Assembly (NCBI GenBank): GCA_026397175.1 | Contig: JAPLVK010000015.1 | Coordinates: 70,313-123,760 of the forward strand | Length of the DNA stretch: 53,448 nucleotides | Source: Candidatus Berkelbacteria bacterium | Lineage (GTDB): Bacteria; Patescibacteriota; UBA1384; DTJR01 | Direction of reading: 5' to 3' | Shown: positions 11,568 through 20,174 of the stretch, one piece after another | How the letters are laid out: each line of letters begins with the position of its first letter | Numbering within the stretch: position 1 is the stretch's first letter | The notes under the pieces: model-generated | The model's input: only the letters and a program-made list of their open reading frames with translations | The model's database searches: none | Told to the model about the DNA's origin: nothing | Program-made: the position numbers and the translations under genes

Positions 11568-11912
11568 GGGACAGTATGGATTCGACGGGAAGTTCGTTGA
11601 AATAAGTGGCAAGCCGAGCGTGTATCGCAAGCTCGTAAATCCCCGATGCAAATTTCAAGTGCAAAATCACTTGTAGAGAAAGTAAAAACTGCTTTTGCAG
11701 GACTAGCTTTTTCGCCTGCCGTCGCCTAATTGCGACGACTGTCTTGACTACTCTTTGACCTGAAGAGTTCTCAAGGCACAACCAATCAGGTCTACATCTC
11801 GCGAGATCATCCTAGTAGCGAGACGATGAAAACGAGGATATTTCCATAAGCTTGTGTATCTACTTATTCAATCTCTTTTTGGACGGGGGTTCGATTCCCC
11901 CCTGTTCCACCA
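11568..11912 (+). ncRNA. ssrA: Transfer-messenger RNA (tmRNA)
   Basis: Rescues stalled ribosomes together with SmpB (encoded at 23084-23527). The tRNA-like ends are clear: GGGACAG at 11568 pairs with CTGTTCC before A-CCA at 11909-11912, and the T-arm GGGGG-TTCGATT-CCCCC is intact. The tag frame begins at the resume codon GCA (11661) and stops at TAA (11727-11729). It encodes 22 residues, starting AKSLVEK and ending FSPAVA, which is longer than the common 10-residue tag but with the usual small hydrophobic end. It is one piece, not permuted. An integrated element begins directly after its 3' end, and its own terminator now appears to lie at 20165-20210. Confidence 0.95.
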
Positions 11913-12318
11913 AAGGATATTTTTTGTGAGCCAAAAGCTCAGTTGCTTCATATATAGTGCCTAATTTTGCGGTTCCAAAACCTTTTTCGCGGTCGTAAGA
12001 AATTCCCTCCGGAAAAATCAATTTTTGGAACCTCGGCCGAAGTTGCTGTGGTAAATCAAACCATTGCCGGCTTAAATCCTTTATAAATTGAATTGCGAAA
12101 CTCAATACCGCCTCTACATCAAGTTGATCTATTCTAGTTTCATTTAATGTTATCTTTTCGGCAGTTATCTTGTTATCTACTTGGCTTCTTCGTTCATTAA
12201 ATTCCTCAACCGTATATGAATCGTCCTCGCGCATTTCAAAGATGCGCTGTCTTTTGCGCTCCAATTCTTCAACTAATTTTTTCTGTCTGTCTATTTCTAA
12301 TTTGTAAGCAACACTTTT
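11860..12318 (-). pseudogene. Serine recombinase C-terminal part (frameshifted)
   Basis: Continuation of the recombinase at 12297-13358 in another frame. Past a run of six A on the minus strand (12315-12320), the frame reads KSVAYKLEIDRQKKLVEELE and then a coiled coil and the typical recombinase tail (SRQWFDLPQQLRPRFQKLIF). It crosses attL and ends antisense inside ssrA, where its last residues (QGGIEPPSKKRLNK) come from the tmRNA T-arm and acceptor. One extra A, or a -1 slip at the A-run, would restore a product of about 499 aa. Causes could be a real mutation, an assembly error or programmed slippage. Confidence 0.75.
11904..11914. other. Attachment site attL
   Basis: The 11-bp sequence GTTCCACCAAA forms the tmRNA 3' end plus two bases and is repeated exactly at 20164-20174. 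It marks the left junction of the integrated element. Confidence 0.75.
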
Positions 12319-13358
12319 TTCATTCCAAAGATCTCAAGAAAATCCTTTTCAATCCTTGTCTTTAAAATGGCCTTACCATACATTGAACACTCCTTATTCC
12401 GGCAGTGATAGTAAAAATACCGGCCTCCGTTGCCCCTAGGAGAGCTTCCAGCCACTGGTTTACTACAAGTGGCGCATAGTACAGTTCTTACCAACGGAAA
12501 AATAGGATTATAGCGATTTTTCTTTACGCAGTGCTTGTTTTTACCTCCCAGTGTGAATTGGATTTCTCGCATTTCGTTCTCAGAGATCATGGGCTTGTGT
12601 TGGCCCTTTATGGTTTCGCCAGTATAAGGATTAAGCAAGATACCTGCATAAAATCTTAAGTGCTGTGTAAACATTTTTTCAACAAACTGTACGGTCGTTT
12701 TCTTACCTCGTAATTTCGATAAACCCCATTTATCGAGTAGATCAGCCAGATCTGTTTTACTAACAGTCCCTTTCTTGAATTCCTTCAATCCTCTCTGAAT
12801 AATAGGAAAAATCTTCTCATCGGGCAAATCCGGCTCTGTCTTCTTTTCGCCGCGGGATTTACAACGACCCGATATATAACCTATAGGACATTTATGAGGA
12901 TAGATGCCTTGATTTATTCGCGCACTCTGGCCGTCACAACATCGCTGTTTTCTAATCGCATTATCAAATTCAGCCGAAGCGGCGAGCATTGTTTCCACGA
13001 ATTTTTCGACCGGCTTATTACCAATCGGCTCTGTAACAGAATGGAGCGTTACCCCATAATCTAAAAGGGTTTTCCTTACAAAAAAGTGATCTTCCGTATT
13101 TCGCGCAAATCGGTCGACTTTATGAACAACAAAAGCCCCTAGTTTACCCTTATTCTTGCGACAAAATTCTAATCCTCTTAAAAATTCCTTCCTGTTGTTT
13201 AGCTTCATATCTTTGGCTGACTCTCCTTCGCAAAAGATTTCAATAATGTCTATGCCGTTTATCTTACAATATTCCCGGCACGCCTTATCTTGCTCTTCGA
13301 GTGATGTTCCTTCCGTCTGTTCCTTAGAGCTAACCCTTATATAAACAACACCTTTCAT
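12297..13358 (-). CDS. Large serine recombinase (integrase), N-terminal part
   Basis: Site-specific recombinase expected to integrate and excise the element. The resolvase domain starts VVYIRVSSKEQ with the catalytic Ser at about residue 10 and has VHKVDRFARN. The recombinase domain follows, then a zinc ribbon (CATC, about 24 residues, CRNKEC). The start chosen is the ATG at 13358, which has GGAGG five bases upstream; an ATG at 13370 is in frame but less well placed. The frame stops at 12297 shortly after an A-run at 12315-12320; the coiled coil and C-terminal portion continue in another frame. A hairpin leader lies upstream at 13378-13442. It is unusual in that most ssrA integrases are tyrosine recombinases. 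Confidence 0.88.
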   Translation of the reverse strand: MKGVVYIRVSSKEQTEGTSLEEQDKACREYCKINGIDIIEIFCEGESAKDMKLNNRKEFLRGLEFCRKNKGKLGAFVVHKVDRFARNTEDHFFVRKTLLDYGVTLHSVTEPIGNKPVEKFVETMLAASAEFDNAIRKQRCCDGQSARINQGIYPHKCPIGYISGRCKSRGEKKTEPDLPDEKIFPIIQRGLKEFKKGTVSKTDLADLLDKWGLSKLRGKKTTVQFVEKMFTQHLRFYAGILLNPYTGETIKGQHKPMISENEMREIQFTLGGKNKHCVKKNRYNPIFPLVRTVLCATCSKPVAGSSPRGNGGRYFYYHCRNKECSMYGKAILKTRIEKDFLEIFGMKKVLLTN

Positions 13359-13377
13359 TTTTACCTCCATTAACCTT

Positions 13378-13442
13378 AAAGGGACGATTCAGGTTGACCC
13401 AACTTGCTACCGAAAGTAGTTTATTGGCTGAATCGCCCCTTT
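13378..13442 (-). promoter_or_regulatory. Hairpin leader of the recombinase gene
   Basis: AAAGGGACGATTCAG (13378-13392) pairs with CTGAATCGCCCCTTT (13428-13442) with one mismatch. An inner hairpin CTAC-CGAAA-GTAG lies between. The stem ends about 20 bases before the recombinase start and its GGAGG site, so it could control translation or protect the message. Confidence 0.55.
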
Positions 13443-13506
13443 ACGGGCAATAAACAAAAAATCTTTCGGATTAAACAACAAGCGGGTCAACAAATATATT
13501 ATACCA

Positions 13507-18814: not shown

Positions 18815-19031
18815 AGTAAAAATATATCTCAGTGAATTTTTTTGGCAATCACAAGATTTTTTCAGGATAATTTTGAAAAATTTTCTAGACGAAAGACGAG
18901 GGTACTAAGCAAACTAATTTTTGGGAAAGAGGGGTGGGGGTGGTCCGGATTTGGATTTTTTAACTTTCAGTATTCACAATTCGGAAAATGACGATAAACT
19001 CTTTGCTATTTATTTGAATGTGGTAATCTCA

Positions 19032-19063
19032 AATCAATCAATCAATCAATCAATCAATCAATC
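19032..19063 (+). repeat. Tetranucleotide microsatellite (AATC)8
   Basis: Eight uninterrupted copies of AATC plus a partial ninth. Read in the frame of the downstream gene they encode SINQ repeats. The tract lies 22 bases before the ATG at 19086 and has no stop between. Confidence 0.95.
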
Positions 19064-19085
19064 AATAGCAACTATTATAAATGAC

Positions 19086-20087
19086 ATGAACAAAAAGGAT
19101 GAGTTTAATAAGATAATCGCATTAGCTAAAAGTGCTGAAAAGGAAGGCAATTTTTTGAAGGCAGCATATTTATATAAGGACGCTCTCGATGTTGCAGTAC
19201 AAGAACAAAATTCAAAAGACATTGTCTTGTGTAAAAGAAAAATAATTTACGCGAACAAGAATGCCGAGAAAGATTTTAAGGAAATCAAAGTTGAGAAGAA
19301 TTTCGACACGAAAGAGCTCAATGATTTAATAAATAGAACTATTGACCGAAACAGCATAGAGGAAATTCTCAAATATATCGCCATAAGCCCGAACTTTTAT
19401 CCTAAATATGATGATATTGAGAAAATCTCCAAATCATCAACCCCGATATTTAGACAATTTGCCAGCACAACCACCATTTCCGACAAAGGTCTTCTAATAA
19501 AGGGCGGGCAGGATGGGGCTTTCTCTTGGTTTATGGAAATGTATGATCTCCAACAGCAAATCATCGTAAAAATTTGTTTAATTCCTATTTTTAATCGTTT
19601 AAGTAAAGAAAAAAATAAGGATAAAGTTATGACAGCGGATAGTTTGATAAATTATTTTCAAAATTCTGGATTGTTTGAAGACAAGGAGCTTAACATAATT
19701 AGGGTAGGGATTGAAAGATATTTTGCCGAGGACTATATATCGTCCATGCATATACTGGTGCCGATGTTTGAAAGCTCGTTTCTTAGCATTTCTCAAAAAC
19801 TAGGACTTGATATTGTGGCTTTACAAACCGGAAAGGAAAAAGAAATCAGTATGAGAATAACTACTTTGTCCACAAAACATTTAGAATCAGATGAATTTAT
19901 TAACAAATGGGGAAAAGACCTCTGCGAACAAATTAAATTTGTATTTTTTGAACCTTTGGGGTATCGGCTTCGTCACAAAATCGCTCATGGCGAAATTTCA
20001 CAAGACGAATGCAACCTGTTTAATGCAACCCTGATCATATATTTTTATCTCGTTATAACTGGTCGCGTGCAAAAAATTACTTGTTAA
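19086..20087 (+). CDS. HEPN/DUF4209-like protein
   Basis: Protein of 333 aa from the ATG at 19086 (MNKKDEFNK). The frame is open for 55 further codons upstream through the SINQ repeats, with TTG (19014) and GTG (19020) possible starts. The N-terminus has TPR-like helices (KSAEKEGNFLKAAYLYKDAL). The C-terminal domain has DYISSMHILVPMFESSF and GYRLRHKIAHGEI; the latter carries R-x4-H (RHKIAH), the HEPN ribonuclease signature, in the arrangement seen in DUF4209. HEPN proteins of this sort are common in abortive-infection and toxin systems. As cargo of a mobile element a defence role is plausible but inferred. Its stop overlaps the element-end reading frame of the recombinase tail. Confidence 0.72.
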   Translation: MNKKDEFNKIIALAKSAEKEGNFLKAAYLYKDALDVAVQEQNSKDIVLCKRKIIYANKNAEKDFKEIKVEKNFDTKELNDLINRTIDRNSIEEILKYIAISPNFYPKYDDIEKISKSSTPIFRQFASTTTISDKGLLIKGGQDGAFSWFMEMYDLQQQIIVKICLIPIFNRLSKEKNKDKVMTADSLINYFQNSGLFEDKELNIIRVGIERYFAEDYISSMHILVPMFESSFLSISQKLGLDIVALQTGKEKEISMRITTLSTKHLESDEFINKWGKDLCEQIKFVFFEPLGYRLRHKIAHGEISQDECNLFNATLIIYFYLVITGRVQKITC

Positions 20088-20174
20088 GCAGCGTGAAAAG
20101 CCGGCATTAACTCCTGCCATCCCTTCAGCTCTTGTATCAATCGGTTCCAGTCAAATTGCCTGAGTTCCACCAAA
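20084..20174 (-). other. Displaced recombinase 3' end (attP half)
   Basis: On the minus strand from attR the frame used by the recombinase at attL continues without a stop for 26 codons past the shared LVE: LRQFDWNRLIQELKGWQ and ending AFHAA, then TAA at 20084-20086. In the excised circle this would form the native recombinase C-terminus. In the integrated state it has no start and is silent. Confidence 0.6.
20164..20174. other. Attachment site attR
   Basis: Second copy of GTTCCACCAAA, matching 11904-11914. Bases to the left belong to the element, bases to the right to the chromosome. Confidence 0.75.

Follow-up and report, generated by a model that had tools for sequence, protein, structure and literature searches.

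In the ssrA islands of Dehalococcoides, the gene of the recombinase DsiB always overlaps attL, the C-termini it encodes are divergent and its stop codon is found solely in antisense ssrA or in a neighbouring island; it was proposed that DsiB may reach full function only in the circular form (McMurdie et al., 2011, PMC3146451). These islands are inserted in the T-loop with a 20-bp direct repeat and carry a second small recombinase, DsiA; no conserved circle-form tail was reported for them (PMC3146451). In the myxophage Mx8, attP lies within the integrase gene int, and integration creates a new int 3′ end; the product, Int (IntP), is still active, with a changed specificity (PMC6070905). In the Islander paper of 2014, the integrases of Mx8 and SSV are named as ones that reach across attP, and serine integrases are stated not to be known to target transfer RNA (tRNA) genes (PMC4383910). 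Here we describe an element integrated at the 3′ end of ssrA, the gene of transfer-messenger RNA (tmRNA), in a 53,448-nucleotide stretch of a Candidatus Berkelbacteria genome (contig JAPLVK010000015.1, positions 70,313 to 123,760; "the window" hereafter). Its attP is located inside the gene of a large serine recombinase. As judged from the window and homologous loci, the circle and integrated forms of this gene encode different C-termini, and the circle-form tail is conserved, under selection and removed by integration.

The element is delimited by an 11-bp core, GTTCCACCAAA, with just two copies in the window. The features of the locus are as follows.

11568 to 11912, plus strand: ssrA (tmRNA), the integration target, found by ARAGORN and matching RF00023; its 3′ end is the attB half of attL
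11904 to 11914, no strand: attL core, an exact repeat GTTCCACCAAA; this copy sits at the ssrA 3′ end
11904 to 20174, no strand: integrated element, made up of an 8260-bp circle and the second core copy
11860 to 12333, minus strand: 3′ part of the recombinase in a shifted frame (open reading frame and alignment), crossing attL and stopping in antisense ssrA
12297 to 13370, minus strand: 5′ part of the large serine recombinase, up to the frameshift, with the Resolvase catalytic domain (Pfam PF00239, E 7e-27) and a weak zinc ribbon
20084 to 20173, minus strand: native tail LVELRQFDWNRLIQELKGWQELMPAFHAA, left detached at attR; on the circle it continues the recombinase frame (in-silico join; member of the tail profile)
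20164 to 20174, no strand: attR core, an exact repeat GTTCCACCAAA
20165 to 20210, plus strand: displaced ssrA terminator hairpin overlapping the core, with the same layout as in three related genomes (L239, L240, L244)

In-silico joining of 11912 to 20173 yields ssrA with its CCA end and a perfect 20-bp terminator hairpin followed by a T-run (fold z = -8.5); no comparable hairpin is present on the attL side (z = -0.7). Since this joining restores ssrA-CCA and a terminator, as in relatives, the ends of the element are placed correctly. Relatives' ssrA sites, a check named in an earlier sequence-only reading of this DNA, support the placement in part: ssrA-CCA is directly followed by a hairpin and T-run in three of the five related genomes, and no hairpin after ssrA is evident in the other two (L241, L243). 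In the empty site, the CCA end of ssrA belongs to a 20-bp perfect inverted repeat with the terminator, which integration disrupts.

Read on the minus strand across attL, the recombinase ends in HKKYPLVE followed by QGGIEPPSKKRLNK and a stop; the whole core-crossing antisense-ssrA end is LVEQGGIEPPSKKRLNK. Joined to attR, the same frame reads LVE and then LRQFDWNRLIQELKGWQELMPAFHAA, with a TAA stop at 20084-20086. Both ends of the gene as proposed in the sequence-only reading, one antisense in ssrA and the other at the distant TAA, are confirmed. The 3′ part in the window is homologous to the recombinases of L113 (a free viral contig) and L073 up to the LV of the core. The zinc ribbon of the window recombinase scores only below the cut-off; relatives match PF07508 and PF13408.

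Homologues were gathered from genomes of the same class, from 80 genome contigs and from viral contigs. At 68 of the 80 loci from genome contigs, the recombinase reading frame runs into an antisense tRNA or tmRNA gene and stops within or past it; 13 kinds of RNA are involved (Leu 14, Ala 14, Thr 10, Met 7, Glu 5, tmRNA 5, and others). Of the remaining 12, at least one runs to the edge of its contig, and several have terminal residues resembling antisense tRNA where ARAGORN made no call. The hosts include Berkelbacteria, Roizmanbacteria, a Nitrospina metagenome-assembled genome, Rhodobacterales and Gammaproteobacteria; cultured hosts are, for example, Roseovarius marisflavi (L073), Thioclava marina (L105) and Kordiimonas aquimaris (L109), and intact recombinases occur in L066, L097 and L103, among others. 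Recombinase bodies of the LV/MV type (the window, L113, Alphaproteobacteria and part of Patescibacteria) share the same last alignment column, the core valine; other members use another core frame (FGG, NGA). The tail of the integrated form varies freely in length and sequence among homologues. Frames running antisense into tRNA genes are also seen in more remote serine recombinases of this class (L015, L018, L019, L021, L028), with endings such as WRARRELNPRSQA; the overlap may thus not be confined to the present subfamily. The genome of the window itself (G000, 1.0 Mb) has seven recombinase matches, one of them in tRNA-Lys (L028). No close relative of the window recombinase was found among 55 genomes of the class, the best match being at about 40%. 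No close isolate phages were found either: all phage matches were below 60% identity and none covered 80% of L113.

The circle-form tail is conserved in its sequence, with the motif MV.L..ESSN.LF..LEEWE.HL or, in a looser form, V.L....N.[LI][FI]..L..W...L. A search for the attR repeat within 10 kb returned mostly chance 7-10-mers; attR sites were located using longer flanks and a tail profile. The longer flanks gave tails in L066 (MVGLTRESSNQLFQALEEWERHL), L103 (MVQLERETWNSLFEVLHDWELQL), L055 (MVEARGKSSNPIFDILEQWNSIL) and L053 (DLNQIQRYIWKWYNIIK). The L113 contig contains no tRNA gene, and there the body and the tail share one open reading frame ending in LVDLLTPSWNPTLAWLRHLYDTLPRAA. A profile of these six tails (window, L113, L066, L103, L055 and L053) retrieved further ones, with nothing below E 0.8 in a reversed-translation control. 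A strict profile, restricted to the tails placed without recourse to tail similarity (window, L113 and L053), retrieved L107 at E 0.02, whereas L055 scored no better than E 1.1. It is therefore chiefly the larger profile, combined with position, strand and frame, that connects the divergent tails. An alignment of 15 tails (the window and 14 others), in all of which the Asn of the motif is invariant, was used to search genomes and gave out-of-sample tails, including L201, L202, L205, L208, L210, L211, L212, L217 and L219, each starting with an in-frame NTGGTG, and the Patescibacterial L193 (E 1.8e-5), L194 (E 0.003) and L195 (E 0.03).

The recombinase and the tail could be found on one contig in 17 elements. 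In all 17, tail and recombinase share a strand, and the tail lies upstream at a distance of 6.7 to 39.6 kb. It starts with NTGGTG in the frame continuing the body in 16 of them, the other (L053) having GCGGTG within a 20-bp repeat; attL of L107 is degenerate and its tail assignment weaker. Four of the 17 linked tails (L012, L074, L080, L096) were retrieved, along with five more unlinked tails, by a profile lacking them. Because 17 other elements carry the motif at their far ends, the arrangement seen in the window is not due to chance. Comparison of the in-silico circle with relatives supports the expectation of a native tail: the tail matches those of related elements, and the LV/MV-type bodies reach the core valine. 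No tail homologue was found in phage records. Detached tails also occur in tandem, on one strand and 0.7-8 kb apart with other genes between them: in L228 (G018:C5) at 17511, 18230 and 19359 (plus strand), in L231 (G029:C79) at 844, 1557 and 2980 (minus strand) and in G052:C90 at 36.6, 38.9, 47.3 and 50.9 kb (minus strand). These look like arrays of elements without int or cassettes with a common att type; on excision, a recombinase could acquire different tails from them.

Selection on the tail was estimated from 12 close tails as the ratio of non-synonymous to synonymous polymorphism (pN/pS). For codons 11-24, which lie over 30 bp away from the core, pN/pS is 0.28 (95% bootstrap interval 0.12-0.52), and for the last 16 tail codons it is 0.89. 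The other two frames show 1.3 and 1.6, and both are closed by stops in 12 of 12 tails. Because the constraint is confined to a single frame and lies more than 30 bp past the core, it is the protein, and not a DNA site alone, that is under selection. In the AlphaFold model of L113 (mean predicted local distance difference test score, pLDDT, 85; predicted template modelling score 0.46; alignment of 27 sequences containing no other tail), the serine-integrase domains and a coiled coil are followed by a disordered segment, 476-502, which includes the core residues, and by a helix at 504-519. The selected part of the tail is therefore a predicted helix on a predicted flexible linker, with the att core supplying linker codons. 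Since this helix is under purifying selection, the tail is a genuine part of the protein, lost at every integration. In a Foldseek search, the model matched serine integrases complexed with attP/attB as well as with attL and a recombination directionality factor (E down to 1.6e-19).

Overall, we consider the window element to be a now-broken member of a broad group of tRNA- and tmRNA-targeting serine recombinases with attP in the recombinase 3′ end, where loss of the helix marks integration and helps to stabilise it; we would give this reading a probability of about 0.6. The enzyme made from the circle and bearing the helix would be the integration-competent form. Integration fuses the catalytic body to antisense tRNA or tmRNA sequence and strands the helix codons at the far end; the tail-less enzyme produced afterwards would be altered or less active, so that the integrated state would be both marked and stabilised. 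Excision, probably with the help of a directionality factor or else through low residual activity, would restore the helix-encoding gene. A further contribution to control could come from the missing ssrA terminator, through transcription that continues antisense into int. Judging from this anatomy and from the effect known in Mx8, the tail may report the state of the element or bias the direction of recombination. We only tentatively suggest a more specific role, in which the tail helix is a sensor of the integration state, its presence permitting attP x attB recombination and its loss changing or blocking recombination, i.e., directionality control encoded by att.

Several observations weigh against this interpretation. 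The window recombinase does not have an intact reading frame: a frameshift divides it, and downstream of the zinc ribbon it is short of about 19 residues compared with six of six homologues, which was overlooked in the sequence-only reading. The affected region, 12297-12340, reflects either real decay or an assembly error. Unless the latter is true, the enzyme of the window is, on its sequence, dead, and its swapped tail is a relic of an arrangement that once worked; with such a frameshift and internal deletion, the tail switch would be inactive here without help in trans. Confidence in the modelled helix at 504-519 is low (pLDDT about 60). In many elements the core shared exactly by both ends is just 6-11 bp long, a length that serine recombinases would lead one to expect. 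No tail was found in a search of the Patescibacterial clade with the FGG frame, which is the nearest by ORF1, and in L099 a 26-bp repeat is followed by an unrelated tail.

The most serious alternative, which we still consider unlikely, is that the swap is a passive by-product. Placing attP in the 3′ end of int would keep the two linked, and the tail would aid folding or stability of the enzyme made from the circle, its loss being tolerated without any regulatory meaning. Such an explanation accounts for the whole anatomy and for selection on the tail, and the free variation of the integrated tail also speaks for it. However, most LV/MV-type homologues have the core at one and the same residue of the body, which looks more designed, as does the modelled separate helix on a linker; moreover, a swap of this type alters activity in Mx8. 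Much less probable is control by antisense transcription from the host gene, in which integration parts ssrA from its terminator and transcripts entering int antisense damp its expression, the change of the tail being incidental. The displacement of the terminator hairpin to attR with no replacement at attL, and the terminators directly following ssrA in relatives, fit this mechanism, but it was examined in the window alone and leaves selection on the tail helix unexplained. Finally, the idea that the tail DNA is kept as the recombinase-bound right arm of attP and not for the protein is very improbable, being largely refuted by the codon-level selection: the first tail codons do overlap the expected attP half-site, but the constraint is strongest at over 30 bp from the core and is seen in one frame only.

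Searches of the element cargo against PHROGs and PADLOC returned little. A gene at 18921-20087 (plus strand) matches the candidate defence family PDC-S39 (PADLOC, E 2.4e-15) and DUF4209, and 18455-18814 (minus strand) codes for a protein resembling the terminase small subunit. Neither other phage structural genes nor a second, DsiA-like open reading frame with a Resolvase domain were found among the open reading frames scanned in the element.

Directionality is a central question for serine integrases and a practical limit of this class of genome-engineering tools. As a conserved helix is genetically removed at each integration in many natural tRNA-targeting enzymes, the question of the circle form raised for DsiB becomes directly testable. 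The annotated genomic C-termini of these integrases are largely antisense-tRNA artefacts, and detached tails mark the ends of elements.

The sequence-only reading implied that such an arrangement was without precedent among integrases, which is contradicted by both Mx8 Int and DsiB. Like DsiB, the window serine recombinase overlaps attL and stops in antisense ssrA; it differs in that its core has 11 bp and coincides with the CCA end of ssrA, instead of being a 20-bp repeat in the T-loop, in that no DsiA-like companion was seen among the open reading frames scanned, and in the conserved tail found here, none having been reported for DsiB. The window and the other tailed elements share with Mx8 an attP inside int and a new int 3′ end after integration. 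Mx8 Int is a tyrosine integrase of a single phage group, whereas the present group is broad and consists of PF00239 serine recombinases. The fuselloviral SSV-type integrases are also tyrosine enzymes with a gene spanning attP, but that gene is split by integration, while here a short tail is swapped. In mycobacteriophages with integration-dependent immunity, attP is inside the repressor gene and the C-terminus changes on integration; the affected gene there is the repressor and not, as here, the integrase. The integrases of phiC31, Bxb1 and A118/LI have the same fold (Foldseek) and domain order as the present group, and their attP is located outside the int coding sequence. We found no description of the conserved tail in the literature searched, which covered papers available without subscription. 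The principle is already known; what is new is the conserved, selected tail and the breadth of the group that carries it.
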